Of a stretch of DNA of 33,619 nucleotides, positions 2-12,811 are shown piece after piece. Made by a program: the position numbers and the translations under genes. The notes under the pieces were generated by a model. It was not told where the DNA came from. It ran no database searches and saw only the letters and a list, made by a program, of their open reading frames with translations. Source of the stretch: Phyllobacteriaceae bacterium (lineage in GTDB: Bacteria; Pseudomonadota; Alphaproteobacteria; Rhizobiales; Rhizobiaceae); contig JAMLIH010000032.1 of NCBI GenBank assembly GCA_023954255.1, forward strand, positions 1 through 33,619. The letters run 5' to 3'. Numbering within the stretch: the first letter of the stretch is position 1; each line of letters opens with the position of its first letter.

Positions 2-1585
2 CTGAAACGCCAGGCAGCCATGCTGACCGCAGGTCAGATCGACCGGCGCCAGTTCATCATGGGAGCGCTTGCCGCCGGCGTCGTTCTGCCGTCGGCAATG
101 ACCATGGCCGACCGGGCAATGGCCATGACTCCCAAATCGGGTGGCAAGCTTCGCATCGGTGCCGCACACGGCTCGACAACTGATGCACTGGACCCGGCAA
201 CCTATGAAAATGGTTTCACCACCGCCATGGGCTTCATGTGGGGCAATTGCCTGACCGAGGTCAACAACAAGGGCGAACTGGTTCCCGAACTTGCGGAGAG
301 CTATGATTCCTCCGATGCCCAGACCTGGGTATTCAAGCTTCGCCAGGGTGTGGAATTCCACAATGGCAAGACACTGACTGCAGAGGATGTTGTTGCTTCC
401 ATCAACCACCACCGCGGGGAGGAATCCAAGTCCGCGGCGAAGGGCATCATTTCCGGCATCACCGACATCAAGGCAGATGGCAACAATGTCATCTTCACCC
501 TCGATTCCCCGAATGCCGACTTCCCTTATCTGATCTCGGATTATCACCTGCTGATCATGCCTTCATCCGATGGCAAGGTGGATCCAAACTCCGGTATCGG
601 AACGGGTGGTTACGCAATCGAAACCTTTGAACCGGGCGTACGCGTGATCGCCAAGCGGCATGCGAACTACTTCAAGGAAGGTGCGGCCCATTTCGATGAG
701 GTTGAACAGCTCGCGCTTGTCGACGTCACAGCCCGCCAAAATGCGCTGATGAACGGCGACGTGGATGCCATCAGCCGCGTCGATCCCAAGACAGTTGCCC
801 TGCTCGGCCGCAACCCGAATGTCGAGATACTCGAAAAGACCGGAACGCTGCACTACACCTTCCCCATGCGGGTGACGATCGCGCCGTTCGACAATTACGA
901 TCTGCGCATGGCGCTGAAACTCGCCGTCAACCGCCAGGAGCTTGTCGACAAGATCCTGCTCGGCCACGGCGCCGTCGGAAACGACACGCCGATCTCGCCG
1001 GCAACCAGCTTCTATGCGGAACTACCGCAGCGCGAATTTGATCCCGAGAAGGCAGCAGAGCACTACAAGAAGTCCGGTCACAGCGGCCCGATACAGTTGT
1101 CGACCGCAGATGCTGCCTTTGCTGGCGCAGTGGACGCAGCGCAACTTATTGCCGCCTCCGCCAAACAGGCCGGTATCGACATCGAGGTGGTGCGCGAGCC
1201 GAAGGACGGCTACTGGTCCAACGTATGGAACAAGAAGGGCTGGTGCGCCTGCTACTGGGGCGGCCGTCCGACTTCCGACTGGATGTATGCCTCGGCCTAT
1301 GTCAACGACACCGAGTGGAACGACACCGACTGGCGTACCGGTGCTGCCTGCGACCGCTTCAACGAACTGGTCAAGGCTGCACGCGCCGAGCTCGACGAGT
1401 CGAAGCGTGCCGCCATGTACAAGGAAACGCAGGAAATCCTGCGCGACGATGGCGGGGCACTGGTGCCGATGTTTGCCAACCACATCATGGGTGTCTCCAA
1501 ACAAGTCGGACACGGCGAGAACGTCGCCGCCAACTTTGAGATGGACGGTCTCAAGGGGCACGAGCGCTGGTGGCTCAACGCCTGA
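2..1585 (+). CDS. Tat-exported ABC transporter substrate-binding protein (peptide/opine type, SBP_bac_5), 5' end outside window
   Basis: Periplasmic solute receptor of a dipeptide/oligopeptide/opine-type ABC importer. The protein carries a twin-arginine signal (DRRQFIMG) followed by a hydrophobic stretch and an Ala-rich cleavage region. The family-5 fold follows, with typical segments such as GGKLRIG, LVPELAESYD, WVFKLRQGVEFHNG and LTAEDVV. The first ATG in the window is at 20, but the frame stays open to the window edge and reads LKRQAA just before it. That matches the usual N-terminus of this family (xYLKxQAAxGxISRRxF), so the true start probably lies upstream of the window. From the ATG at 20 the product would be 521 residues. 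No permease or ATPase genes follow on this strand, so partners must lie upstream. The gene is convergent with suyB. The substrate cannot be assigned. Confidence 0.88.
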   Translation: MKRQAAMLTAGQIDRRQFIMGALAAGVVLPSAMTMADRAMAMTPKSGGKLRIGAAHGSTTDALDPATYENGFTTAMGFMWGNCLTEVNNKGELVPELAESYDSSDAQTWVFKLRQGVEFHNGKTLTAEDVVASINHHRGEESKSAAKGIISGITDIKADGNNVIFTLDSPNADFPYLISDYHLLIMPSSDGKVDPNSGIGTGGYAIETFEPGVRVIAKRHANYFKEGAAHFDEVEQLALVDVTARQNALMNGDVDAISRVDPKTVALLGRNPNVEILEKTGTLHYTFPMRVTIAPFDNYDLRMALKLAVNRQELVDKILLGHGAVGNDTPISPATSFYAELPQREFDPEKAAEHYKKSGHSGPIQLSTADAAFAGAVDAAQLIAASAKQAGIDIEVVREPKDGYWSNVWNKKGWCACYWGGRPTSDWMYASAYVNDTEWNDTDWRTGAACDRFNELVKAARAELDESKRAAMYKETQEILRDDGGALVPMFANHIMGVSKQVGHGENVAANFEMDGLKGHERWWLNA

Positions 1586-1694: not shown

Positions 1695-2876
1695 TCAGGC
1701 GCTGCGGTAAAGCTTGGTCATGGAGAACTCGCGATGGCCCAGCGCTTCGGCAGCGGTATTGCGGCCGTTGGCGGTGCGGCGGATCATGTCGATCAGCGCA
1801 TCGCCGGCTTCGTCGATGGTCTGGTCGCGGCGCAATATGCCCGAGACGTCAACATCGATGTGCTCGCCCATGGTGCGCACCGTGCGCGGGTTTGCGGTGA
1901 TCTTGATCACCGGCACGATGGGGTTGCCCACAACATTGCCCTGACCGGTGGGAAAAGTGTGGATTACCGCGCCGCCGGCAGCCATCAGGGTCACGCACTC
2001 GGCAGCAGCCGAAGAGGAATCCATAAAGTAGAGCCCGTTGCCCGATCTGGGCTGTTCTGCCGGTTCGAGGATATCGATGTACTGCGATGTGCGCCCGATC
2101 TTTTCGAGGTTGCCAAGTGCCTTTTCCTCAATCGTGGTCAAGCCGCCCAGGATGTTGCCTTTGGTCGGCTGGCTGTCGGAAAGATCGTCGGTCTGATGGG
2201 CAAAAATCACCTCGTCCTGATAGGCCTTCCACATCTTGTACCAACGCTCGCCCACTTCTTCGTTGATGGCACGTTTCTGGCAGATGTGCTCGGCCCCGGT
2301 GATCTCCGATGTTTCCCCGAAAAAGCCGGTGATGCCTTCGGGCAGGAGCTTGTCATACATGTTGCCGACGGTCGGGCAGGAGCCAAGGCCGGTCGTGGTG
2401 TCACTCTCGCCGCATTTGGTTGAGACCCACAACTCGGAGATCGAACATTCCTCGCGCTGCACCTCCGTGGCCTTGTGGACGAAATCCTTGGCCGCCCAGC
2501 TTGCCGCGCGAATGGTTTCAAAATCTCCCTTCTGCTCGATGGAGAATTCCGCGACCTCCTTGCCGGTTTCGCGGATGCCGTCCGCGATGCGCCTGGTCCA
2601 GTCCGGCTCGATACCGATCACCACCACAGAATGCACGTTGGGGTTTGCACCCGTGCCGATCATCGTGCGGAAATGCGTTTCCAGGTCCTCGCCGAACTGC
2701 AGCCGGCCATAAGCGTGCGGCAGTGCGAGCGTGCCCTTGACGTTGTTTGCGACCGCTTCACAGGCAGCGTTGGAGATATCGTCCACCGGCAGGATGATGA
2801 CGTGGTTTCGAACTCCCACGCGGCCGTTTTCGCGCCGGTAGCCCATGAAGGTGATGTTTGCGTATTTCGATGCCAT
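1695..2876 (-). CDS. suyB: (R)-sulfolactate sulfo-lyase large subunit SuyB (UxaA/GD_AH_C family)
   Basis: Large catalytic subunit of the lyase that splits (R)-sulfolactate into pyruvate and sulfite in the cytoplasm. The 393-residue protein is a stand-alone C-terminal domain of the altronate/galactarate dehydratase (UxaA) family. Visible family features are [14 protein letters not shown] near the N-terminus, a [17 protein letters not shown] segment and the C-terminal [16 protein letters not shown] region. The family alone would also allow a sugar-acid dehydratase. SuyB is favoured because the small subunit is a separate gene just upstream and both follow the hps dehydrogenase and TRAP genes. 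The ATG start has a GGAG ribosome site and lies 19 bp after suyA. It is the last gene of the operon. Confidence 0.82.
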
Positions 2877-2895
2877 TGTCTTGCTCCCGGCTCGC

Positions 2896-3186
2896 TTACC
2901 AGCGCTTTGTTTTCAGGTTGTGGACGTGGACATGGCCGCCCTTTTCGACATCGGCGATAAACTTGCCGATATCCTCGCCGTACTTGATCGCGGTGTCGCC
3001 CGAGCCGATATCCTTGAGCGCGACCTTGTGACCGATGGGAACATCGGCCCGGGCGGTCAGACGGAACGTTGAATTGTCGTGGGTGACACAGCACAACATG
3101 TCGGTGCCGGCGGTGAGCCCTTCGACCACAACCACGCCGACATTGTCGGCATGTTCGTGGACAAGCAGGTGGGGAATTTCTGCCAT
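2896..3186 (-). CDS. suyA: (R)-sulfolactate sulfo-lyase small subunit SuyA (SAF/UxaA N-terminal domain)
   Basis: A 96-residue protein that matches the small N-terminal (SAF-type) domain of the UxaA family: [15 protein letters not shown], then [16 protein letters not shown], then IKYGEDIG, ending in [12 protein letters not shown]. In SuyAB this domain is a separate subunit, whereas altronate dehydratases usually carry both domains in one chain. A longer reading from a TTG at 3201 is possible, but the ATG at 3186 has an AAAGGA ribosome site at good spacing and is preferred. It starts 11 bp after the stop of the zinc dehydrogenase gene and precedes suyB. The lyase assignment rests on family plus operon context. 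Confidence 0.82.
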
Positions 3187-3197
3187 GATCGGTCCTT

Positions 3198-4193
3198 TCA
3201 AGCGTGATCGGGATTGAGAATGATCTTCGGCGCGTCGACCCTTCCGTGGTAGAGGTCAGCGAAAGCCTCGCCTCCCTCCGCCAGCGGGCGGATGTCACAC
3301 CAGTCGAGCGCGCCCAGCCGGCCATCGAACATGGCTGCGGCGGTGTCGCGAAAATCCTGCATCGTGTAGGTGTAGGTGCCGATGAAGGTTATTTCCTGCA
3401 GTGTCATGCGGCGGATATCGAGACCGCCTTCGGCCTCACCCAATCCGATGTGGACGATCACGCCGCCGGGTCTTGCAAGGCTTGAAGCCACCCTGCGCGT
3501 GGCTGCCAGCCCGACCGCATCGATCACCAGATCGAACTGGCTGCCTTCAAGCTCGTCGGGATGAACGCAATTGAGCGCAATCCTGCTGCGGGAGAATTCC
3601 CTGCGCCCTGCATGGGCCTCGGCAACCGTTGCCGAGGCAAATCCCTTTGCCTGCAGGCTCAAAGCAGCACCTACGCCGATGGCTCCGCCCCCCAGCACAA
3701 GAGCCACGCATTCACGTGCAGGCTGATGGAGTGCACGCATTGCCAGCTTCACGGCGTGCCAGCCGCAGGCGAGCGGCTCCGCCAGTGCCGCCTTGTCGTC
3801 GGCAAAGCCGTCGGGGATTTCCACCAGATTGCGCTGCGGCAGGCAGACATATTGTGCAAATGCTCCCTGGCGCGGCGGCATGGAGATAATCTGCCGGTGC
3901 GGGCAGAGGTTCTCGCGGCCGCTTGCGCAGGCTGCGCAACGCATGCAACTCACCAGGGGGTTCACGGTAACGCGCCGGCCCTCGCCCGGGCCGGCGACAA
4001 CCACGCCTGCCGCCTCGTGACCCAGGATCAGCGGCGCCGGCCGGCGCTCGTCGTGGCCCAGATAGGCATGCATGTCCGAGCCGCAAATGCCGACGCTTGC
4101 CACGCGGATCAGGCAGTCATCGCCCTGCGGGGAAGGGTCGGCGGCTTCGCGGTATTCCAGCTCCTGTTTTCCGGTGTAGACCAGCGCTTTCAT
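3198..4193 (-). CDS. hpsP: Zinc-dependent alcohol dehydrogenase, probable DHPS 2-dehydrogenase (HpsP-like)
   Basis: A medium-chain zinc dehydrogenase of 331 residues. Catalytic zinc ligands are visible at Cys37 (GICGSD) and His59-Glu60 (GHE). The four structural-zinc cysteines are Cys83, Cys86, Cys89 and Cys97, and the nucleotide-binding glycine motif GGGAIGVGA is at about 168-176. The ATG at 4193 overlaps the TGA of the upstream SDR gene (ATGA), so the longer open frame is not used. In known DHPS degraders, HpsO and HpsP are NAD(P)-dependent 2-dehydrogenases that interconvert the two DHPS enantiomers through the ketone. The operon position supports that role here. Which gene is O and which is P follows the gene order and is an inference. 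Confidence 0.7.
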   Translation of the reverse strand: MKALVYTGKQELEYREAADPSPQGDDCLIRVASVGICGSDMHAYLGHDERRPAPLILGHEAAGVVVAGPGEGRRVTVNPLVSCMRCAACASGRENLCPHRQIISMPPRQGAFAQYVCLPQRNLVEIPDGFADDKAALAEPLACGWHAVKLAMRALHQPARECVALVLGGGAIGVGAALSLQAKGFASATVAEAHAGRREFSRSRIALNCVHPDELEGSQFDLVIDAVGLAATRRVASSLARPGGVIVHIGLGEAEGGLDIRRMTLQEITFIGTYTYTMQDFRDTAAAMFDGRLGALDWCDIRPLAEGGEAFADLYHGRVDAPKIILNPDHA

Positions 4194-4948
4194 TTCGCGG
4201 TGAAACCCCCATCCACCATCAGTACCTGTCCGGTGACATAGTCGCTGGCCGGCGAGCACAGAAAGAGCATGGGCCCGTCGATGTCGGATGGCTCGCCATT
4301 GCGGCCGATGCAGGTTTTGGCTGCATTGGCGCGTTCCAGTTCAGGATCGGCGAACACCGGCGCCGTCAGTTCGGTCCTGAAGAAGCCGGGGCCGATCGCA
4401 TTGCAGTTGATGCCGTGCTGCGACCAGGCTTCGGCCATGGCCCGGGTCAGCTGGGCAATGCCCCCCTTCGAGGCGCCATAGGCAATGCCGCCCGGAAACG
4501 CCCTGAAGGTCTGCAGCGAGGCGAAATTGACGATCCGCCCCCAGCCTTTCTGCCGCATTGCCGGAACCAGTTTCTGCGCCAGAAAGAACGGTGCGGAAAG
4601 ATTGAGTTCGAGTGTGCGGTCCCAGCCCCCGGCGCTGACGCTGTCGGCCGGTTCGCGATTGTTGATGCCTGCCGCATTGACCAGAATGTCCGGCGCACCG
4701 AAGGGGGATATCACTTCTGCTGCGATCCGTTCGATGGCGTCCCTCTGCGAAAGGTCGCCCGTCACGGCGACTGCCCTTCCGGCTGCCGACCGGGACCAGT
4801 CGGCAAGCATGTCCTGCCGCCGGGCGACGCCAACCACGCTGGCGCCGGCAGCAAGCAGGACATCGGCTGTCCGGCGTCCGAGGCCGGAACTGGCGCCGGT
4901 GACGCAGGCAACCTTTCCTTCAAGGCTGAAAAGCACGGCAGGATCCAT
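4190..4948 (-). CDS. hpsO: Short-chain dehydrogenase/reductase, probable DHPS 2-dehydrogenase (HpsO-like)
   Basis: A classical SDR of 252 residues. The cofactor motif TGASSGLG is at 17-24 and NAAG at 91-94. The catalytic Asn116, Ser144, Tyr157 and Lys161 (YGASK) are all present, and the C-terminus YVTGQVLMVDGGF is standard. It lies 10 bp after hpsN and overlaps the next gene by 4 bp (ATGA), so translation is probably coupled. As the partner of the zinc dehydrogenase it would oxidise or reduce C2 of DHPS and let both enantiomers enter the pathway. Sequence alone cannot exclude another polyol substrate. The hpsO name is tentative. Confidence 0.7.
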   Translation of the reverse strand: MDPAVLFSLEGKVACVTGASSGLGRRTADVLLAAGASVVGVARRQDMLADWSRSAAGRAVAVTGDLSQRDAIERIAAEVISPFGAPDILVNAAGINNREPADSVSAGGWDRTLELNLSAPFFLAQKLVPAMRQKGWGRIVNFASLQTFRAFPGGIAYGASKGGIAQLTRAMAEAWSQHGINCNAIGPGFFRTELTAPVFADPELERANAAKTCIGRNGEPSDIDGPMLFLCSPASDYVTGQVLMVDGGFTAK

Positions 4949-4958
4949 TGCAGTCTGC

Positions 4959-6266
4959 TCAGCCCCCTGCGGTCAGATCGAACGTTTCGTCCGGGAAGTA
5001 CTTGCGGAGCCTTATGTCGGCGGTTCTCGCATGTCCTTCCATACCTTCGAGCCGGGAAATCCGGGCCGTTGCTTCGGCGACCGGTTTTGCCCCCTCGCGG
5101 GTCGAACGCTGCCAGGTGACGATCTTCATGTATTTGTGCACCGAAAGCCCGCCGGTATAGCTGGCCGCTCTCGAGGTCGGCAGAACGTGGTTGGGACCCG
5201 AAGCCTTGTCGCCGAAGGCAACCGTCGTTTCCTCGCCCAGAAACAATGACCCGTAACACTGCAGCCGGTTGAGCCACCAGCCGAGGTCTTCTGCCTGAAC
5301 CGTCAGATGTTCCGGTGCGTAGTCATCCGCGGCCTGGGCCATTGCCTCGCGATCGGTGCAGAGGATCACTTCGGCATAATCGCGCCATGCGGCTTCCGCA
5401 TTCATGCGGTTGAGTTCGGGGAGATCGGCGATGAGAACCGGAACGAGGTCCATGACCTTTCTCGCCAGGTCCTCATCATCGGTCACCAGCCACACCGGCG
5501 AGTTGTAGCCGTGTTCTGCCTGGCCCACGAGGTCGGCGGCAACAATCTCGGCATCCGCGCTGCCATCGGCGATGATCAGGCTGTCGGTCGGGCCGGCAAA
5601 CATGTCGATGCCGACTCGGCCGTAGAGAATGCGCTTGGCCTCGGCGACGAACTGGTTGCCCGGCCCTACAAGAATGTCCGCCTCAGGCAGGCCGAACAGG
5701 CCGAATGCCATAGAGGCAATGCCCTGCACGCCGCCCATGGCGAGGATGGTGTCGGCGCCGCAGAGATCGGCGGCATAGACAATGGCCGGCGCAATACCCG
5801 TGTCCGGTCTTGGCGGCGAGCAGGCGACGATGCTGCCGCAGCCGGCCACCCTGGCTGTCGTGACCGTCATGATCGCCGATGCGATATGGCTGTAGCGGCC
5901 GCCCGGAATGTAGCAGCCTGCCGCGCGAACCGGGATGCTCTTCTGCCCTGCAACAAGGCCGGGGATGATCTCGACCTCGATGTCCTTCAGCGTTTCCTTC
6001 TGGGCTTCGGCGAAACGCCTGACATTGGCATGGGCGAACTGGATATCGCGCTTGAGCTGTTCGGGCACCTTGGCATGGGCTGCATCGATTTCCTCACGTG
6101 AAAGAACGATGTTGCCGGCGTAGTTGTCGAACTTCCTCGCATATTCCAGCGCACCGGCATCGCCCCGTGCCTCGATGTCATCGAGGATGGCCTGTACGGT
6201 CTGCCGGGTCTCGCCGGAGTCGGTCTGCGATGTGCGTTCCGCTTTCTTGAGATAGATACGCGACAC
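4959..6266 (-). CDS. hpsN: Sulfopropanediol 3-dehydrogenase HpsN (histidinol dehydrogenase family)
   Basis: A 435-residue member of the histidinol dehydrogenase family. HpsN oxidises the C3 alcohol of (R)-DHPS twice to give (R)-sulfolactate, using NAD+. Zinc and catalytic residues of the family are in place: Gln249 and His252 (GQAEHG), Glu319-His320 (APEHL), Asp353 (GDKASGPNHVLPT) and His412 (EGMEGHART). It is not called hisD because no histidine genes are nearby and it sits between a TRAP transporter and suyAB, as in DHPS-degrading bacteria. The start is a GTG at 6266 with AAGGA 6 nt upstream. It begins 15 bp after hpsM and ends 10 bp before the SDR gene. Confidence 0.82.
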   Translation of the reverse strand: MSRIYLKKAERTSQTDSGETRQTVQAILDDIEARGDAGALEYARKFDNYAGNIVLSREEIDAAHAKVPEQLKRDIQFAHANVRRFAEAQKETLKDIEVEIIPGLVAGQKSIPVRAAGCYIPGGRYSHIASAIMTVTTARVAGCGSIVACSPPRPDTGIAPAIVYAADLCGADTILAMGGVQGIASMAFGLFGLPEADILVGPGNQFVAEAKRILYGRVGIDMFAGPTDSLIIADGSADAEIVAADLVGQAEHGYNSPVWLVTDDEDLARKVMDLVPVLIADLPELNRMNAEAAWRDYAEVILCTDREAMAQAADDYAPEHLTVQAEDLGWWLNRLQCYGSLFLGEETTVAFGDKASGPNHVLPTSRAASYTGGLSVHKYMKIVTWQRSTREGAKPVAEATARISRLEGMEGHARTADIRLRKYFPDETFDLTAGG

Positions 6267-6281
6267 TGTTTTTCCTTATCG

Positions 6282-7646
6282 TCAGTTTGAATAGAGATAG
6301 GCCGGCAGCCATGTGGCGATGGCCGGGAAAAGGAAGACCAGCATCAGCCCGATGAGCTGGATGACCATGAACTGCATCATGCCGAAGTAGATGTCCTTGA
6401 GATCCCATTCGGGCACCACGCCCTTGAGGAAGTAGGCCGAAAGGGCAACCGGCGGACTGAGCCATGCGGTCTGCAGGCAGACTGCGACGAGGATGGCGAA
6501 CCAGACCATGTCGACGCCAAGTTCCAGCAGCACCGGCGTGAGGATCGGCAGGATGATCAGAACGATGGGCACCCATTCGAGCGGCCAGCCGAGGATGAAC
6601 ACAAGCGCCAGGATCATCAGGATGATCCAGCTTGCGCCCAGATCGAAGCCAAGCAGAATTTCGGTGATCATCTGCGGCGTGCCGAGACGCGAGAAAACAG
6701 CACCGAAGAAGTTGGATGCCGCAACAAGAAAGAGGATCAGAACCGATATCTCCAGCGTCTTGATCAGCGCCGAATAGGTCTTGGCCAATGTGAACTTGCG
6801 GTAGCCGATACAAAGCAGGATCGAGCCGAACGCCCCCATGCCCGCGCCTTCGGTCGGCGTTGCCCAGCCGAGCAGGATCGAGCCCATGGCAAAGGCGATC
6901 AGGATCGACGGCGGAACGAGGCCGAGCATGAATTCGCGCCAGACATGGGCCCGGCTGTCGGGGATCATCTCCTCCGGCAGGGCCGGTCCGAGTGCCGGGT
7001 TGAGCCAGCAGCGGCCGACGGAGTAGATCAGGTAGAGAACCGCCATCAGGATGCCGGGGAAGATCGCTGCGGCAAAGAGGTCGGTTACCGGAATTTCCAG
7101 CACCGGCCCCATGACCACCAGCATGATGGACGGCGGAATGAGAATGCCGAGCGTTCCGCCCGCGGTGATTGTTCCGGCGGCCAGGCGGACGTCGTAACCC
7201 GACTTGTTCATGGTCGTGGCGGCCATGATGCCGAGGATCGTCACCGAGGCGCCGACAATGCCGGTCGCCGCCCCGAAAATCACCGATACGAACAGCACGG
7301 CGATGAACAGCGATCCCTTGACGCGGGCAAGCATGAGCTGGACGGCCTGGAACAGGCGCTCCATCAGGCCTGCCTGCTCCATCATGAAACCCATGAAGAC
7401 GAACAGCGGAACGGCAGCAAGTGTCTGTTCCATCATCGAACCGTAGATCTGCAGGTTCATGAGGAAGATGGTCAGCTTCATTCCGAAGCCCCATGCGCCG
7501 AAAAACACGCCCAGGAAGATCAGGGTGAAGGAGATCGGGAAGCCGACGAAGATGGCGAACAGCATCGCCACGATCATCAGGACGCCGATCGTCTCCGGCG
7601 AATAGTCGGGAAGAAGGTCGAAGAGGGATTGAACGAGATCGAGCAT
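6282..7646 (-). CDS. hpsM: TRAP transporter large permease (DctM family), probable DHPS uptake, HpsM
   Basis: The 454-residue large membrane subunit of a tripartite ATP-independent periplasmic transporter, with about a dozen hydrophobic segments and family motifs such as FVFMGFMMEQAGLMERLFQ, GGTLGILIPPSIML and GWATPTEGAGMGAFG. Driven by the sodium or proton gradient, it would pass the substrate delivered by HpsK into the cytoplasm. The ATG at 7646 overlaps the stop codon of the small permease gene (TGATG), showing translational coupling. The upstream extension of the open frame is not used. Substrate assignment is by operon context only. Confidence 0.85.
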   Translation of the reverse strand: MLDLVQSLFDLLPDYSPETIGVLMIVAMLFAIFVGFPISFTLIFLGVFFGAWGFGMKLTIFLMNLQIYGSMMEQTLAAVPLFVFMGFMMEQAGLMERLFQAVQLMLARVKGSLFIAVLFVSVIFGAATGIVGASVTILGIMAATTMNKSGYDVRLAAGTITAGGTLGILIPPSIMLVVMGPVLEIPVTDLFAAAIFPGILMAVLYLIYSVGRCWLNPALGPALPEEMIPDSRAHVWREFMLGLVPPSILIAFAMGSILLGWATPTEGAGMGAFGSILLCIGYRKFTLAKTYSALIKTLEISVLILFLVAASNFFGAVFSRLGTPQMITEILLGFDLGASWIILMILALVFILGWPLEWVPIVLIILPILTPVLLELGVDMVWFAILVAVCLQTAWLSPPVALSAYFLKGVVPEWDLKDIYFGMMQFMVIQLIGLMLVFLFPAIATWLPAYLYSN

Positions 7647-8257
7647 CAGACCGGCCACCTTCCGCGCGTTGCGGCGTACCACGCCTTGAGTATCTCGGAG
7701 ACGCCCTGGACCAGCAGCAGGAAGACCCCGGCTGCCAGCGCGGATTTGACCGGCCAGACAATGGGAGCCCAGGTGGAGTCGCCCGCCCGTTCACCCTGCA
7801 TGATCGACTTCAGGGCAAATTCGTAACCCGCATAGAGCAGGAACAGCATCGACGGCATGAACAGCAGGACATAGAGGACGAGATCGATGCGGCCCTGCAT
7901 GCGCTCGCTGAGGCCGCGATAGAGGAAATCGGCCCGGATGTGCAGGCCGCGCATCAAGCCATAGGCCGCGCCCAGCATGAAAGACATGCCGTAGAGCATT
8001 CTGGAAATGTCGAAGGCCCAAAGCGTCGGCGCCACGAAAATCTTGCGCGACACAACCTCGTAGACCATCGCCAGCATGATCGGGACAACCAGAAGGCAGA
8101 CGATTTTCCCCGTCCAGTCCGAAACGGTGTCGACCGTTCTTATGATCACCTTGTGCACCGGGTTCATGTCGTCCGGAAGCTTCGCATCCGGCCCGCCCCG
8201 GCGTTCGGCGAGCAACTCGTCGCCGATTTCAAGCGCATCGTCTGTCGTGTTGGCCAT
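7646..8257 (-). CDS. hpsL: TRAP transporter small permease (DctQ family), probable HpsL
   Basis: A 203-residue protein with a roughly 45-residue hydrophilic N-terminus and four hydrophobic segments: IVCLLVVPIMLAMVYEVVSRK, the MSFMLGAAYGLMRG region, VLYVLLFMPSMLFLLYAGYEF and the SALAAGVFLLLVQGV region. This is the DctQ topology. The ATG at 8257 has a strong GGGGAGGA ribosome site, and an ATG at 8275 would overlap that site, so 8257 is chosen. It is coupled to hpsM by a TGATG overlap. An 88-bp spacer with a hairpin separates it from hpsK. Confidence 0.83.
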   Translation of the reverse strand: MANTTDDALEIGDELLAERRGGPDAKLPDDMNPVHKVIIRTVDTVSDWTGKIVCLLVVPIMLAMVYEVVSRKIFVAPTLWAFDISRMLYGMSFMLGAAYGLMRGLHIRADFLYRGLSERMQGRIDLVLYVLLFMPSMLFLLYAGYEFALKSIMQGERAGDSTWAPIVWPVKSALAAGVFLLLVQGVSEILKAWYAATRGRWPV

Positions 8258-8304
8258 GGTTCCTCCCCTTGCCATTCCGCCGGCTGATTTGTGATTGCAG
8301 AAGG

Positions 8305-8332
8305 CTGCCGCCCGCCGGAAGGCGGACGGCTT
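8305..8332 (-). promoter_or_regulatory. Hairpin between hpsK and hpsL (possible attenuator or mRNA-stabilising stem)
   Basis: An imperfect 10-bp stem with one mismatch: GCCG-C-CCGCC at 8307-8316 and GGCGG-A-CGGC at 8321-8330, with a GGAA loop. There is no long T tract, so it is more likely to make the receptor gene more abundant than the permeases than to be a full terminator. That is an inference from its place in the operon. Confidence 0.45.
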
Positions 8333-8345
8333 TGCCGGATGCCGG

Positions 8346-9461
8346 TTACTGCTTCAGAGAATCGGCATATGCCTTGCCAAGATTGGCATTCGAGGTCTGC
8401 GCGCCGGCCCAGAAAGGCACGGCGAGCTTGGCGAAGTCCTTCTGGCTCTGCCAAACCTTGGCGAAGAACTCGTTTTCGGCGGCGTTCTTCTCCAGCGCTG
8501 CGCGCGCAGCGTCCATGTACTCCTTGAAGTAGTCGGCAGGCGTGTCATGGAGTATGACGCCGTCCTCGTTGACCAGCTTGTCGAGGGCCTTGCCGTTTTC
8601 AATGATGCGGTAGGACATGGCCTTGGACAGGGAGGCGTTGGCCGCCACCTCGATGGCTTTCTTCTGGGTATCCGTCAGCGCGTTGTAGACGTCGCCGTTG
8701 ATGTAGAGGTCGGCGTTCACCACAACCTGGTGCAGGCCCTGCAGATAGTAGTGCTTGAGCACTTTCTGGAAGCCGAAGACGGAATCCGGTTTCGGGCAGC
8801 ACCATTCGGCGGCATCGATGGTTCCCTTTTCAAGCGCCGGCAGGATATCCCCGCCACCCATGGCGACAGAGGCAACGCCGATGTCCTTGTAGGTCTGGCC
8901 GGGGATGCCCGGCGGCGTGCGGAAGCGGTACTTGCGGAAGTCTTCCATGGAGGCAATCGGCTCCTTGAACCAGCCGAGCGCTTCCGGGCCGACAGGCTGC
9001 AGCATGAAGCCCTTCACGTTGACGCCCATCTCCTTCCACAACTGGTCGTAGAGCTCCTTGCCACCGCCGAACTGGAACCAGGAAACGAAGGCAATGTTGT
9101 CGATGCCAACGCCCGCTCCGGCTACCGGCGAGCCGAAAAGCATGGCCGCCGGGTGCTTGCCGGACCAGTAATGGGTCCACGCAAAGCCGGCTTCCACCAG
9201 TCCCGCATCCACCGCGTCCATCACTTCCTGAACGCCGACAACGGCGCCCGCGGGAAGCACTTCGAACACGACCTCGCCGTTGGTGAGCTGTTTCACGTCC
9301 TCGGCGAAATCCTGCAGCATGACGACTTCATCCGCACTGTTGGGAATCACCGACTGGATGCGGATCTTGGTTTCGGCAAGCGCCGAAAACGGCAGCGCCA
9401 TTGCCACCAGGCCGAGCGTGGCAGCGGCCACACCCCGGGTCAATTTACTGAGAATGGACAT
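8346..9461 (-). CDS. hpsK: TRAP transporter substrate-binding protein (DctP family), probable DHPS receptor HpsK
   Basis: A 371-residue periplasmic receptor of a TRAP transporter. A Sec signal peptide is clear: basic MSILSKLTR, a hydrophobic core and a cleavage site after ALPFSALA (about residue 29). The mature part has DctP features: PNSADEVVMLQDFAEDV, LPAGAVVGVQEVMDAV, the WFKEPI segment and FRTPPGIPGQTYKDIG. Its EWCCPKPD segment belongs to the ligand-binding region. A strong ribosome site (GGAGGAGACAA) precedes the ATG. It is the first gene of the operon and a probable terminator lies upstream, so the main promoter should be just before it. DHPS as ligand is inferred from the downstream enzymes. 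Confidence 0.83.
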   Translation of the reverse strand: MSILSKLTRGVAAATLGLVAMALPFSALAETKIRIQSVIPNSADEVVMLQDFAEDVKQLTNGEVVFEVLPAGAVVGVQEVMDAVDAGLVEAGFAWTHYWSGKHPAAMLFGSPVAGAGVGIDNIAFVSWFQFGGGKELYDQLWKEMGVNVKGFMLQPVGPEALGWFKEPIASMEDFRKYRFRTPPGIPGQTYKDIGVASVAMGGGDILPALEKGTIDAAEWCCPKPDSVFGFQKVLKHYYLQGLHQVVVNADLYINGDVYNALTDTQKKAIEVAANASLSKAMSYRIIENGKALDKLVNEDGVILHDTPADYFKEYMDAARAALEKNAAENEFFAKVWQSQKDFAKLAVPFWAGAQTSNANLGKAYADSLKQ

Positions 9462-9631: not shown

Positions 9632-10282
9632 TCATGCGATGCCCCCTTTTGAGAGATGAACGAGAATGCCGGTGGCGGGATCGAATATCCCGCGGTAGAA
9701 CATTTCGGCCGCCACATAGAGCAGCACGAACAGGCCCAGCCAGGAGATGGCCGGATAGCGTGTCAGCAGTTTCATGATCAGGGTTGCGGCAAAAGCCATC
9801 AGCACAATCGCCAGGGCGAGGCCGAAAACCAGAAGCTGCGCATGGCCGTCGGCGATCGCCGCCACTGCCAGCACGTTGTCGAGCGACATGGAAAAGTCTG
9901 CGATGGTAATGGAGATGAGCGCCTGGCCGAGGGTGCGTTTGGGCGCGCCCGTATATCCGGCCGTTTCGTCTTCAGCCGTGCTCATGGCAGCGGCGGCCTT
10001 TTCGTCCACCTGTTCGCGGATTTCGATGTAAAGGCGCCAGCAGACCCAGAACAGCAACAGCGAGCCGACGAGCAGAAGGCCGGGGATGCCGAGCAGTTTG
10101 GTGGCAATGACGGCGAAGAGAATGCGCAGGCCCGCCGCGACCAGCATGCCGTAGACGATCGCCTTCCTGCGCAACTCCGGCGCGAGCGATGCCGCAGCCA
10201 TGCCGATGATGAGCGCGTTGTCGCCGGACAAAACGATGTCGGCGATGACGATCGAGGACAGGTCGAAGAACATTTCCATCAT
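9632..10282 (-). CDS. TerC/YjbE-family integral membrane protein
   Basis: A 216-residue membrane protein with about seven hydrophobic segments and the two conserved acidic motifs of the TerC family, VLSGDNALIIGMA near the N-terminus and SMSLDNVLAVAAIADGH in the second half. Family members are linked to tellurite resistance and, in some bacteria, to manganese export; the substrate here is unknown. Its ATG overlaps the stop codon of the GMC oxidoreductase gene (TGATG), so the two are translated from one mRNA. A second ATG directly follows the first, so the exact start is ambiguous by one codon. A role in exporting sulfite from DHPS breakdown is conceivable but unsupported. Confidence 0.85.
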   Translation of the reverse strand: MMEMFFDLSSIVIADIVLSGDNALIIGMAAASLAPELRRKAIVYGMLVAAGLRILFAVIATKLLGIPGLLLVGSLLLFWVCWRLYIEIREQVDEKAAAAMSTAEDETAGYTGAPKRTLGQALISITIADFSMSLDNVLAVAAIADGHAQLLVFGLALAIVLMAFAATLIMKLLTRYPAISWLGLFVLLYVAAEMFYRGIFDPATGILVHLSKGGIA

Positions 10283-11877
10283 CAGCGCGCATCCTCCAGA
10301 ATCATGTCGGATACCTTCTCGCCAATCATTATGGCGGGAGCATTGGTGTTGCCGGAAACGATCTGCGGCATGATCGAGCAGTCGGCTACCCTCAACCGCT
10401 CGACGGCTCGGACGCGCAGCCTTTCATCGACTACCGCCATCGGATCGCTGCCCATCTTGCAGGTGCCGGTGGGATGGTAGATCGTCGTTGCCGTGTTTCT
10501 GGCCCAGTCCAGCAATGCATCATCGTCCTCGTCGCTTATCCTTTGGCCCGGCTTGTATTCCTCGGTAATCAGATCGGCGACCGGCGAGGCACGGCATATG
10601 CGCCGCGCCACGCGTATGCCCTCGACGATCGTCTGCTGATCAAGGGAGGATGACAGATAATTGGGATGGATTTTGGGATGATCGGCAATGCTGGCCGAGT
10701 GCAGCTTGAGTTCACCCCGGCTTTCGGGCCGCAGTTGAAGCACCGATGCCGTGAAAGCGTCGAAGTCGTCCACGCCGGTCGTCGGATTGTCGGCGCTGAA
10801 GGGCTGGATGTGAAACTGGATGTCCGGCGTCTCAAGCTCCGGGCGGGTCTTGAGGTAGCCCGTGCCGAGGCTTGCAGCCATGGTCAGGGGGCCGGCGCGC
10901 CTGACCAGATATTCAAGCCCGATCTTCGCCTGGTTCAGCACCCCGCGGGTTCTGGTGTTGATGGTCGGCGCGGTGCATTTGTAGACGGGCCGGGCCTGCA
11001 GATGGTCCTGGAGGTTTTTCCCGACACCCGGTGCATTCGCACGGGTTTCAATGCCGTGGCGGGAGAGTTCGGCGCTGTCGCCTACACCCGACAGCATCAG
11101 GATTTGCGGTGAACCGATGGCGCCTGCGGAAAGAACCACCTCGCAGCGCGCGCGGATCTCGGCCTGCCCGCCATCCCTGTAGCCGGCCACTCCGACGGCC
11201 CTCGATCCTTCGAACACGATGTTGCTGGTCAGGAAGCCTGTGATGACGGTCAGGTTGGGGCGGTTGCGCGCCGGCTTGAGATAGGCCTTTGCCGCAGAGC
11301 AGCGCAGGCCGTTTCTGGCGGTAAGCTGAAAATAGGAGACGCCCTCCTGGCTCGTGCCGTTATAGTCCTCATTGTAGGGGAAGCCGGAGGCCTGTGCCGC
11401 CCGCACCCAGGCATCGACGATCTTCCAGGATTTGTTCGACCGCGTCACCGCCAGCGGCCCGCTGCCGCCGCGCAGTTCGCTTGCGCCGTCCTCCCAGCTC
11501 TCGGCCCGCTTGAAATAGGGCAGTACATCCTCCCACGCCCAGCCCGTATTGCCGAGCTGGCGCCAGTGGTCATAATCCTGCGGCTGACCGCGAACATAGA
11601 GCAGTCCGTTGATGGACGACGAACCGCCAAGCGTCTTGCCCCGAGGCCAGTTGATCGACCTGCCGGCAAGGCCCGGGTCGGCCTCGGTGCGGTACATCCA
11701 GTTGAGCGAGGGATCCTTGATGGTCTTGAAATAACCGACAGGGACATGAATCCACGGGGACCGGTCGTGCCCGCCGGCTTCGAGAATCGCAACGGTATGC
11801 CTGCCATCCGCCGACAGGCGGTTGGCAATGGCGCAGCCGGCGGAGCCGGCGCCGACGATCACGAAGTCAAACTCCAC
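10282..11877 (-). CDS. GMC-family FAD oxidoreductase (choline/alcohol dehydrogenase-like)
   Basis: A flavoprotein of 531 residues. The N-terminus EFDFVIVGAGSAGC binds the FAD ADP moiety, RGKTLGGSSSINGLLYVRG is GMC signature 1, GAIGSPQILMLSGVGD is signature 2, and the C-terminal HPTGTCKMG plus SGNTNAPAIMIGEK supply the catalytic His and Asn. The open frame extends far upstream, but a GTG at 11877 with GGGGA at good spacing places the start directly before the FAD motif, giving the usual family length. It is coupled to the TerC-family gene downstream and divergent from an IclR regulator. The substrate is an alcohol by family. Choline, another polyol or a sulfonated alcohol are all possible. Confidence 0.85.
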   Translation of the reverse strand: MEFDFVIVGAGSAGCAIANRLSADGRHTVAILEAGGHDRSPWIHVPVGYFKTIKDPSLNWMYRTEADPGLAGRSINWPRGKTLGGSSSINGLLYVRGQPQDYDHWRQLGNTGWAWEDVLPYFKRAESWEDGASELRGGSGPLAVTRSNKSWKIVDAWVRAAQASGFPYNEDYNGTSQEGVSYFQLTARNGLRCSAAKAYLKPARNRPNLTVITGFLTSNIVFEGSRAVGVAGYRDGGQAEIRARCEVVLSAGAIGSPQILMLSGVGDSAELSRHGIETRANAPGVGKNLQDHLQARPVYKCTAPTINTRTRGVLNQAKIGLEYLVRRAGPLTMAASLGTGYLKTRPELETPDIQFHIQPFSADNPTTGVDDFDAFTASVLQLRPESRGELKLHSASIADHPKIHPNYLSSSLDQQTIVEGIRVARRICRASPVADLITEEYKPGQRISDEDDDALLDWARNTATTIYHPTGTCKMGSDPMAVVDERLRVRAVERLRVADCSIMPQIVSGNTNAPAIMIGEKVSDMILEDAR

Positions 11878-11903
11878 GATTTCCCCAATAAAAGTTAAAA
11901 AAT

Positions 11904-11931
11904 GAGACTTTTTGTCTCGTATTTTGTACGA
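11904..11931. promoter_or_regulatory. Overlapping inverted repeats between the GMC gene and the IclR gene, candidate IclR operator
   Basis: Two interleaved perfect inverted repeats lie in the divergent intergenic region: GAGAC-ttttt-GTCTC (11904-11918) and TCGTA-ttttg-TACGA (11917-11931). Both have 5-bp arms and 5-bp spacers, close to the size of known IclR-family operators. The position, 27-54 bp upstream of the GMC start and 116 bp from the IclR start, would allow control of the GMC promoter. Binding is inferred. Confidence 0.5.
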
Positions 11932-12046: not shown

Positions 12047-12811
12047 ATGCGAGACGCAGAGAATGAACGCCTGCCCACCAATCTGAGGGTGCTCTTCATT
12101 CTGGAAACCGTGGGAAATTCCGCTACCCTGCTCACCCCGACCGAAATCGCCCGCAAGCTCGACCTTCCCAAGCAGACCATCCACCGGATTTGCACCCGGC
12201 TGCTGGAAGAGGGGTTCCTGGCACGCGAACCGCAAGGCAAGGGTTTGCGGCCGGGCCGGAGAATGCGCCATCTCGCCAGCGGCTTGCTGCAGGCATCGCA
12301 TCTTCACCAGATGCGCCACCAGATCCTGATGAAGGTTGCCCGCAATGTCAGCGAAACGGTCAACTATGTCATGCCCGGAGAGGAGGGGATGCACTATGTC
12401 GACCGTGTCGAAACCGACTGGGCATTCCGCGTGCAATTGCCGATCGGCACCGATGTGCCGTTTCACTGCACCGCCAGCGGCAAGGCGTTTCTGGCGTCGC
12501 TGCCGCCCAAGGCCCGCCAGCAAATGGTCCACTCACTGGATCTGGAGGCCCTTACCCCGAACACCCATACCGAGCCTGCCAGGTTGCTGGCGGAACTCGA
12601 TGAGGTCAATCGCGCCGGCTATTCGCTGGACCGGGAGGAATTTGTCGAGGGAATGGTGGCGATTGCCGTCCCCGTCCTCGACTCGCAAAAGCGCTTCCTG
12701 GCAGCCCTTGCATTCCATGGCCCGCTCATCCGGCTGTCGATAGACATCGCCATCTCGCGGCTGCCGGTACTTCAGTCAGCGGCCGGAGAACTGGCCAGCC
12801 TGATGGAATGA
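12047..12811 (+). CDS. IclR-family transcriptional regulator
   Basis: A 254-residue regulator. Residues 10-70 form the winged helix-turn-helix (LTPTEIARKLDLPKQTIHR ... LLEEGFL). The rest is the IclR effector domain, with RVQLPIGTDVPFHCTASGKAFLA and YSLDREEFVEGMVAIAVPV as typical segments. Effectors in this family are often small organic acids. A GGGAA ribosome site precedes the ATG at 12047. The gene is divergent from the GMC-terC pair, so that pair is the most likely target. Control of the hps operon 2.6 kb away is possible. Described DHPS clusters also have a regulator gene, but of the LacI type in Cupriavidus. Confidence 0.88.
   Translation: MRDAENERLPTNLRVLFILETVGNSATLLTPTEIARKLDLPKQTIHRICTRLLEEGFLAREPQGKGLRPGRRMRHLASGLLQASHLHQMRHQILMKVARNVSETVNYVMPGEEGMHYVDRVETDWAFRVQLPIGTDVPFHCTASGKAFLASLPPKARQQMVHSLDLEALTPNTHTEPARLLAELDEVNRAGYSLDREEFVEGMVAIAVPVLDSQKRFLAALAFHGPLIRLSIDIAISRLPVLQSAAGELASLME

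Follow-up and report, generated by a model that had tools for sequence, protein, structure and literature searches.

Organization of the gene cluster

The window analyzed here, a stretch of 33,619 nucleotides from a Phyllobacteriaceae bacterium (assembly GCA_023954255.1, contig JAMLIH010000032.1, positions 1 to 33,619), carries genes predicted to encode the uptake and degradation of 2,3-dihydroxypropane-1-sulfonate (DHPS), joined on the same strand to genes resembling those of isethionate (ise) clusters. A first-pass annotation had read positions 1695–9461 as a complete eight-gene DHPS operon with a TRAP transporter, three dehydrogenases and a two-subunit lyase. Its description of eight genes on one strand, with gaps of 19 bp or less or with overlaps except after the receptor gene, agrees exactly with the open reading frame coordinates. 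The eight genes are not the whole unit, however, because genes for a TerC-like protein and a GMC oxidoreductase continue the strand upstream to a divergent IclR gene. The features are:

12047–12811, + strand: IclR-family regulator, proposed IseR, divergent from the operon (homology to the IclR of ise-type clusters)
11897–11919, − strand: candidate regulator site CGAGACAAAAAGTCTCATTTTTT in the IclR/GMC intergenic region
10282–11877, − strand: GMC oxidoreductase, proposed isethionate dehydrogenase IseJ, GTG start (homology, tree)
9632–10282, − strand: TerC-superfamily (YjbE-like) membrane protein (TIGR03717 above cut-off)
8346–9461, − strand: DctP, TRAP solute-binding protein of a third type (PF03480)
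7646–8257, − strand: DctQ, TRAP small permease (PF04290)
6282–7646, − strand: DctM, TRAP large permease (PF06808)
4959–6266, − strand: HpsN, predicted (R)-DHPS 3-dehydrogenase, GTG start (matches to solved structures, GRYSH motif)
4190–4948, − strand: HpsO, predicted (R)-DHPS dehydrogenase of the short-chain type (SDR; 8wwf match, active-site residues)
3198–4193, − strand: HpsP, predicted (S)-DHPS dehydrogenase of the zinc-dependent medium-chain type (MDR; 8wwd match, active-site residues; ATG at 4193)
2896–3186, − strand: SuyA, predicted sulfolactate sulfo-lyase small subunit (Cupriavidus SuyA; leans on the pairing with SuyB)
1695–2876, − strand: SuyB, predicted sulfolactate sulfo-lyase large subunit (65% identity to Cupriavidus SuyB)
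1620–1647, − strand: terminator-like hairpin after suyB (12-pair stem, 8 GC pairs; suggestive only)

The likeliest start was chosen for each open reading frame, and the spacings were computed from these starts. DctP and DctQ are 88 bp apart, DctQ and DctM share one base, HpsO and HpsP overlap by 4 bp, and the distances DctM–HpsN, HpsN–HpsO, HpsP–SuyA and SuyA–SuyB are 15, 10, 11 and 19 bp, respectively. Upstream of dctP, a gap of 170 bp precedes the TerC-like and GMC genes, which have one base in common. The locus lies on contig C66 of a 3.34-Mb draft genome (139 contigs, 91.8% complete). The closest relative retrieved, a metagenome-assembled Nitratireductor genome (locus L003, HpsN 95% identical), has the identical eight genes in identical order. 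Among the best 80 of 578 hpsN loci, the order hpsN-O-P occurs in 68 and the longer order hpsN-O-P-suyA-suyB in 29; because L003 keeps the whole order and these 29 loci keep that of the enzyme genes, the eight-gene arrangement goes beyond chance.

The DHPS pathway and the hps-suy gene order are already known, as in Cupriavidus and Dinoroseobacter (PMC11382572; this and the other articles cited by PMC number were available as excerpts). The HisD-like protein of the window reached 696 bits against the solved structure 8wwe, deposited as "(R)-DHPS dehydrogenase," and 540 bits against 8v35 (sulfopropanediol 3-dehydrogenase), but only 255 bits against the best histidinol dehydrogenase, 1k75, and a reading as true histidinol dehydrogenase was rejected. 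The hallmark of HpsN is a G-R-Y-A/S-H motif with a sulfonate-binding histidine, where HisD has G-S-A-P-L (PMC11382572); the window protein has GRYSH at residues 123–127. Its Glu319, His320, Asp353, Lys354, Gln249, His252 and His412 correspond, with an offset of one residue, to the catalytic and zinc residues Glu318, His319, Asp352, Lys353, Gln248, His251 and His411 of C. pinatubonensis HpsN, and the residues probed by mutation in two studies (PMC11382572, PMC11131964) are kept. A separate hisD-like match (36%) lies on contig C55 of the same genome. As had been anticipated, generic annotation calls this gene hisD: the TIGR00069 cut-off is passed and related plasmid copies are annotated "hisD."

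The SDR scored 406 bits against 8wwf, "(R)-DHPS dehydrogenase HpsO," and its Ser144, Gln146, Tyr157 and Lys161 match Ser145, Gln147, Tyr158 and Lys162 of RpHpsO, in which Gln147 recognizes (R)-DHPS and is not conserved in gluconate dehydrogenase (PMC11131964). The second-best match (365 bits) was 6le3, deposited as gluconate 5-dehydrogenase; other chains with gluconate dehydrogenase names reached at most 167 bits, and 6le3 may be a misnamed HpsO. The zinc dehydrogenase scored 445 bits against 8wwd and 107 bits against the next solved structure, and has His59, Glu60 and Glu139 at the same numbers as in PMC11131964. The deposited name of 8wwd is simply "zinc-containing alcohol dehydrogenase"; its residue numbering and the adjacency of the entry codes suggest that it is the Dinoroseobacter HpsP structure of that study. 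Best solved relatives and active-site residues agree for all three proteins, so the earlier identification as HpsNOP stands, and the assignments are firm as predictions from sequence.

The split UxaA-type lyase is likewise firmly predicted to be the sulfolactate sulfo-lyase SuyAB. SuyB matched Cupriavidus SuyB with 494 bits (65% identity) versus 134 bits (30%) for E. coli UxaA, and altronate dehydratase was rejected; the galactarate dehydratase model scored far below its cut-off. SuyA discriminates weakly, with 91 bits (46%) to Cupriavidus SuyA versus 62 bits (48%) to the N-terminal part of UxaA. A search for a solved SuyB structure returned galactarate dehydratase as the only solved relative. 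These comparisons uphold the pathway proposed at first, from DHPS via sulfolactate to pyruvate and sulfite. The word "complete" is open to doubt, as the operon itself contains no gene for a sulfolactaldehyde dehydrogenase or an S-sulfolactate enzyme. In an older view, HpsO and HpsP interconvert the DHPS enantiomers; a 2024 study has each of them make sulfolactaldehyde, followed by GabD and then SlcC or ComC (both PMC11131964). GabD, SlcC and ComC are not in the operon, which would suit an interconversion of the enantiomers by HpsO and HpsP. Beyond the operon a single candidate was checked, an LDH2-family gene near xsc (31–35% identity to LDH2-type copies in hps loci); with a ComC score of 182, where the cut-off is 500, it is not claimed as a sulfolactate dehydrogenase.

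Transporter, GMC oxidoreductase and regulator

The first-pass annotation had taken the TRAP genes for part of an ordinary DHPS operon. DctP and DctM share 22% and 27% identity, respectively, with the canonical HpsK and HpsM types that precede hpsN elsewhere, the HpsK reference being the TRAP receptor before hpsN in other loci (L067:5882-7030) and not the R. pomeroyi protein. Canonical HpsK gave no match in the window genome at 1e-20, and no HpsR-type LacI regulator was found in the window, so a standard DHPS unit is very unlikely here. In a clustering of 82 sequences (80 hpsN loci, Cupriavidus and the window), a LacI gene was found in 57 sequences and a TRAP large permease of the usual kind in 31. 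DctP did not match Ruegeria/Leisingera IseK at 1e-3, and DctM is 29% identical to their IseM. Judged by sequence identity, the transporter is of a third type, neither HpsKLM nor Roseobacter IseKLM. Its DctP is 73–98% identical to the receptors of seven other hpsN loci (L003, L006, L034, L039, L049, L054 and L069), and its DctM is 98% identical to that of L003 and 62–66% to fused permeases of the same type. The small and large permease genes are split in L003 as in the window, but fused to a single QM gene in the other six loci. These six fused proteins have approximately 110–115 extra residues in the middle of DctM that the window protein lacks. Window DctP had no match on plasmids at 1e-60.

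The GMC oxidoreductase is proposed to be an isethionate dehydrogenase of the IseJ type. It is 61–62% identical to the GMC proteins of the ise-type clusters of Ruegeria sp. AD91A and Leisingera caerulea, which rank among its top matches on plasmids (of 489 plasmid records, 12 fall at 60–80%). Both clusters, as well as the Ruegeria-genus loci L155–L157, have the order iseR-M-L-K-J, which R. pomeroyi DSS-3 has at SPO2355–2359 (PMC4334477); R. pomeroyi iseKLM mutants lose growth on isethionate (PMC10130141). The GMC genes of Paracoccus and Caballeronia (56–61%) adjoin IclR, a TRAP or MFS carrier, xsc and pta. All five GMC relatives inspected at 56–62% identity lie with IclR and a TRAP or MFS carrier, three of them also with xsc and pta; the surroundings of a Shinella GMC at 53% are unrelated. 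In Hoeflea halophila (L099), the IclR | GMC-TRAP unit is close to that of the window (GMC 74%, DctP 82%, DctQ 76%, DctM 82%), and xsc (TIGR03457, 939 bits) directly follows in place of the hps genes, which lie on another contig (L032). In the window genome, xsc is found on contig C63 (L104, 9019-10796), in two frames scoring 589 and 333 bits.

In a tree of 32 rows, which included 5 of the 12 fetched Ruegeria-genus loci, the window GMC fell into a group of 13 rows (support 96/94), all from loci with the third TRAP type. This group stands next to the ise-type GMCs of Ruegeria, Leisingera and Paracoccus, joined by a weakly supported fork (90/91, drawn open); the Caballeronia protein falls with more distant GMCs and E. 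coli BetA sits on a long branch. Besides this remote position, the betA equivalog model scored 496 against a cut-off of 732, and choline dehydrogenase BetA was rejected, although the cut-off of a less specific subfamily model, "choline dehydrogenase," is narrowly exceeded (611 versus 605).

The IclR protein matches IclR-family models, none above cut-off, and is 45–46% identical to the IclR of the Ruegeria/Leisingera ise-type clusters, 54–84% to those of related hpsN loci and 43–63% to those of further loci with the third TRAP type. The core AGTCTCAT was found in the IclR/GMC intergenic region of all 11 homologous loci, mostly inside an imperfect palindrome, GAGAC-N5-GTCTCATT. A site model was trained on 10 of these 11 regions, so that only its matches in Ruegeria, Leisingera, L121, L122 and L123 are independent. 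It scored up to 31 in the region before the GMC gene in Ruegeria/Leisingera and 31 in L121, and it also found the IclR-TRAP or IclR-TerC regions of L122 (24) and L123 (17), with nothing above 9 in one shuffled control. A relaxed pattern gave 34 matches in 2.05 Mb compared with 0–2 in each of 20 shuffles; the shuffles of both searches kept base composition only. Because several of the stretches overlap (L003/L101, L006/L102, L054/L103, L138/L156, L140/L157 and window/L158), the 34 matches amount to fewer independent sites. In 33 cases the match is no more than 250 bp upstream of the start of a GMC gene. The exception, L119 at 540 (− strand), is a second copy of the proposed site on the far side of the IclR gene, at a distance from the GMC promoter. 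The same intergenic region contains TGAGAC in Paracoccus L150 but not in L151 and L152. In the 3.34-Mb window genome, the 23-mer has a single match with up to three mismatches, at 11897–11919. The site is evidence, independent of the coding sequences, that the operon may be under the control of an IseR-type regulator.

Scans for promoters and terminators yielded a number of sites not clearly above that in shuffled sequences, and Rfam at gathering thresholds reported tRNA only, with no riboswitch seen before the TerC-like gene. A gene at 20–1585 (+ strand) is convergent with the operon end; its product resembles solute-binding proteins of peptide/nickel ABC transporters, below the cut-off of every model.

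Distribution in related genomes

The neighborhood of the third TRAP type was compared in 21 loci, of which ten (the window, the seven hpsN loci, L099 and L100) had come in via hpsN and eleven (L118–L128) by DctP alone. Within the stretches examined, 18 have a GMC gene, 16 IclR, 14 a TerC-type gene and 13 at least one hps gene; for the DctP-only loci the numbers are 8, 7, 5 and 5. Contig ends truncate L034 inside the GMC gene and L126 immediately behind DctQ. In the seven hpsN loci the transporter is accompanied by the GMC and TerC-type genes and, contig permitting, by IclR divergent from GMC. L120 resembles the window in having the single-strand order IclR | GMC-TerC-DctP-DctQ-DctM-HpsN-HpsO-HpsP. 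The distance from dctM to hpsN is 15 bp in L003, the same as in the window, and approximately 26 bp between the matched stretches in L120. The module of L121 is followed by HpsO-HpsP without hpsN, and an hpsN match (55%) lies on another contig (G308:C2). A TerC-superfamily protein, YjbE-like or of the longer PRK14013 type, recurs in the 14 loci counted above (e.g., at 9632–10282 of the window and in L034, L054 and L100); that it exports sulfite or a metal is speculation.

The arrangements form a graded series. The isethionate-type unit is apart from the hps genes in L099/L032 and L100/L007. It is a neighboring unit, with LacI retained, in L006, L039, L049 and L069, where L069 is from a Planktomarina genome and L039 and L049 are from two similar ones. 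In L003, L034, L054, L120 and the window, all genes are on one strand and no LacI was found in the examined stretch. The series could reflect the route of a fusion, although the direction of change is not proven.

Genome surveys addressed the relation between the two transporter types. All candidates were scored in the named genomes, the window genome and the 11 further genomes with the third DctP, and the best 4–5 first-look candidates per genome in the order-wide surveys, which used an even sample of 397 genomes (judging by matching handles, apparently the same set in all three surveys). Among 25 named hpsN genomes, 8 have the third-type DctP; six of these genomes had been chosen with this TRAP known to be present (L003, L006, L034, L049, L054 and L069), and the other 19 comprise 2 with the third TRAP and 17 with HpsK, none of the 17 having the third TRAP. 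Canonical HpsK was not found at 1e-60 in any of 20 genomes with the third DctP (8 named, the window and 11 further); G024 has one HpsK match of 25% at 8.5e-22. The order sample contains the third DctP in 12 genomes, hpsN in 66 and HpsK in 28. HpsN was detected in 10 of the 12 genomes with the third DctP versus 56 of the 385 without it (Fisher p 4e-7) and in 27 of the 28 HpsK genomes. No genome of the sample has both TRAP types (exclusion within the 66 hpsN genomes p 0.004), and 29 of the 66 have neither; these p-values are overstated because the genomes are not phylogenetically independent. G082 and G119 contain the third TRAP, GMC and Xsc but no hpsN at 1e-150, a gene content that fits the use of isethionate. 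For the loci L127 and L128, which have the TRAP and a more distant GMC (53–54%), hpsN was not found in the genome at 1e-150.

A proposed joint unit for isethionate and DHPS

The exclusion of HpsK and the association with hpsN fit a replacement of HpsKLM by the third TRAP for DHPS. Taken together with the genomes that have TRAP, GMC and Xsc without hpsN, this suggests that one TRAP transporter serves both isethionate and DHPS. The ten-gene unit and its divergent regulator are probably an isethionate unit fused to a DHPS unit, with one promoter and a shared transporter, and we propose the order iseR-like IclR | iseJ-like GMC-terC-like-TRAP P,Q,M-hpsN-hpsO-hpsP-suyA-suyB. The ten genes would be transcribed as one unit, and the IclR protein would sense a sulfonate, act at the palindrome at 11897–11919 and thereby set the transcription of the whole unit, DHPS genes included. 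The TRAP transporter would import isethionate and DHPS. IseJ would oxidize isethionate to sulfoacetaldehyde, which Xsc, encoded elsewhere, would convert to acetyl phosphate and sulfite. HpsN would convert (R)-DHPS to (R)-sulfolactate, HpsO and HpsP would bring both DHPS enantiomers into the pathway, and SuyAB would release pyruvate and sulfite from (R)-sulfolactate. The analysis directly supports the identities of the genes at the sequence level, their active-site residues and order, the conservation of the site and the mutual exclusion of the transporters; single-unit transcription, transport of both substrates, IclR control of the DHPS genes and the activity of each protein are inferred.

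Several observations weigh against this proposal. Xsc failed as a discriminator between isethionate and DHPS use, being present in 17 of 20 genomes with the third TRAP and in 9 of 12 HpsK genomes; three third-TRAP genomes (G121, G022 and G023) had no Xsc match at 1e-150. The xsc gene of the window assembly is split over two frames, for which a sequencing error and a broken gene are indistinguishable. The TRAP proteins are not close to Ruegeria/Leisingera IseKLM, and the case for isethionate transport comes from context. The references for GMC and IclR were same-order clusters of Ruegeria, Leisingera and Paracoccus and not the R. pomeroyi proteins. The Ruegeria sites have the opposite orientation relative to GMC compared with the window type, and AT-rich stretches in L072/L073 reach a score of 18, above the site in L123. 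Only 5 of the 11 DctP-only loci have hps genes in the examined stretch. L124, L125, L127 and L128 have none there and a more distant GMC (53–56%). In L122 and L123, which have the third TRAP as well as hps/suy genes, no GMC was found in the vicinity. Internal promoters could lie in the gaps on either side of dctP (170 bp before, 88 bp after), and in a draft genome the absence of HpsR and HpsKLM is provisional.

Some of these points would suit a unit of ten genes devoted to DHPS only, with the GMC protein as a membrane-bound, FAD-linked dehydrogenase of DHPS or sulfolactaldehyde and IclR as a DHPS regulator. A replacement DHPS importer would be expected to track hpsN and exclude HpsK as the third TRAP does (hpsN in 10 of 12 genomes), L122 and L123 combine it with hps/suy genes without a nearby GMC, and xsc is ambiguous because it belongs to one DHPS route, too (PMC11382572). 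We consider this explanation unlikely, as the GMC protein groups with proteins whose genes adjoin xsc and IclR with no hps genes in the stretches shown, the promoter core is common to the Ruegeria/Leisingera ise-type clusters, and G082 and G119 have TRAP and GMC but no hpsN at 1e-150. An isethionate operon might also merely lie upstream of an independently transcribed DHPS operon, with the TRAP importing isethionate only and DHPS entering via another carrier. Promoters would have space in the gaps of 170, 88 and 15 bp, the two gene sets are at separate loci in relatives (L099/L032, L100/L007), and the 29 of 66 hpsN genomes with neither TRAP type indicate that other carriers exist. Such a chance neighborhood is nevertheless improbable in view of the absence of canonical HpsK from all 20 third-TRAP genomes searched, the short distance between dctM and hpsN (15 bp in the window and L003, approximately 26 bp in L120), and the presence of TRAP and hps genes without a nearby GMC in L122 and L123. 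The ordinary eight-gene HpsKLM-HpsNOP-SuyAB operon assumed at first has in its favor the enzymes and the TRAP-N-O-P order seen in R. pomeroyi (PMC4334477) and the order N, O, P, suyA, suyB of C. pinatubonensis (PMC11382572), but it can hardly be maintained when the TRAP proteins share just 22–27% identity with those of the HpsKLM type, the window yielded no LacI gene, and conserved partners continue the strand upstream.

The proposed fused unit combines features of known systems. The hpsRNOUP-suyAB cluster of C. pinatubonensis (strain HN-2, L083) has the shared genes in the same relative order (identities: HpsN 58%, HpsO 53%, HpsP 44%, SuyA 46%, SuyB 65%); it includes an MFS importer and LacI instead of TRAP and IclR, and no GMC or TerC-like gene is named among its listed neighbors. 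In R. pomeroyi DSS-3, hpsRKLMNOPQ-slcD (SPO0590-0598, PMC4334477) has the TRAP genes followed by N, O and P as in the window, but a LacI regulator and, at the end, hpsQ and slcD where the window has suyAB. Mutants have demonstrated its role in DHPS use (PMC10130141), and the type of TRAP before hpsN in related loci is only 22–27% identical to that of the window. The ise-type order in Ruegeria and Leisingera (L097, L098, L155–L157) corresponds to the window in IclR, GMC, the presence of a TRAP, and the core promoter site, but their TRAP is of another family and transcribed away from iseJ, and no TerC-like or DHPS genes are named in the L097 and L098 stretches. The well-studied marine species R. 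pomeroyi keeps the gene sets for DHPS and isethionate apart, whereas the bacterium of the window, a relative of Nitratireductor, appears to join them. No description of a joint isethionate/DHPS operon was found in the literature searched, whose scope left out most subscription papers. As a broader and tentative proposal, a third family of sulfonate TRAP transporters could import the C2 compound isethionate and the C3 compound DHPS; its adoption may have let several alphaproteobacterial lineages drop HpsR/HpsKLM and place DHPS use under the control of an IclR switch of the isethionate type, with the TerC-type protein as part of the module.

Bacteria obtain the sulfonates DHPS and isethionate from phytoplankton, and the transcripts of transporter genes serve to tell which compound is being consumed (both PMC9870897, PMC10130141). 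Searches with hpsKLM or Roseobacter iseKLM would miss the uptake system of these bacteria, generic models name the GMC gene choline dehydrogenase and hpsN hisD, and the transcript response of such an operon could not be assigned to one compound. The locus offers a case in which the merging of two catabolic pathways under one promoter, along with a transporter change, could be tested directly. If the proposal is true, a bacterium that meets one algal sulfonate would prepare for both.

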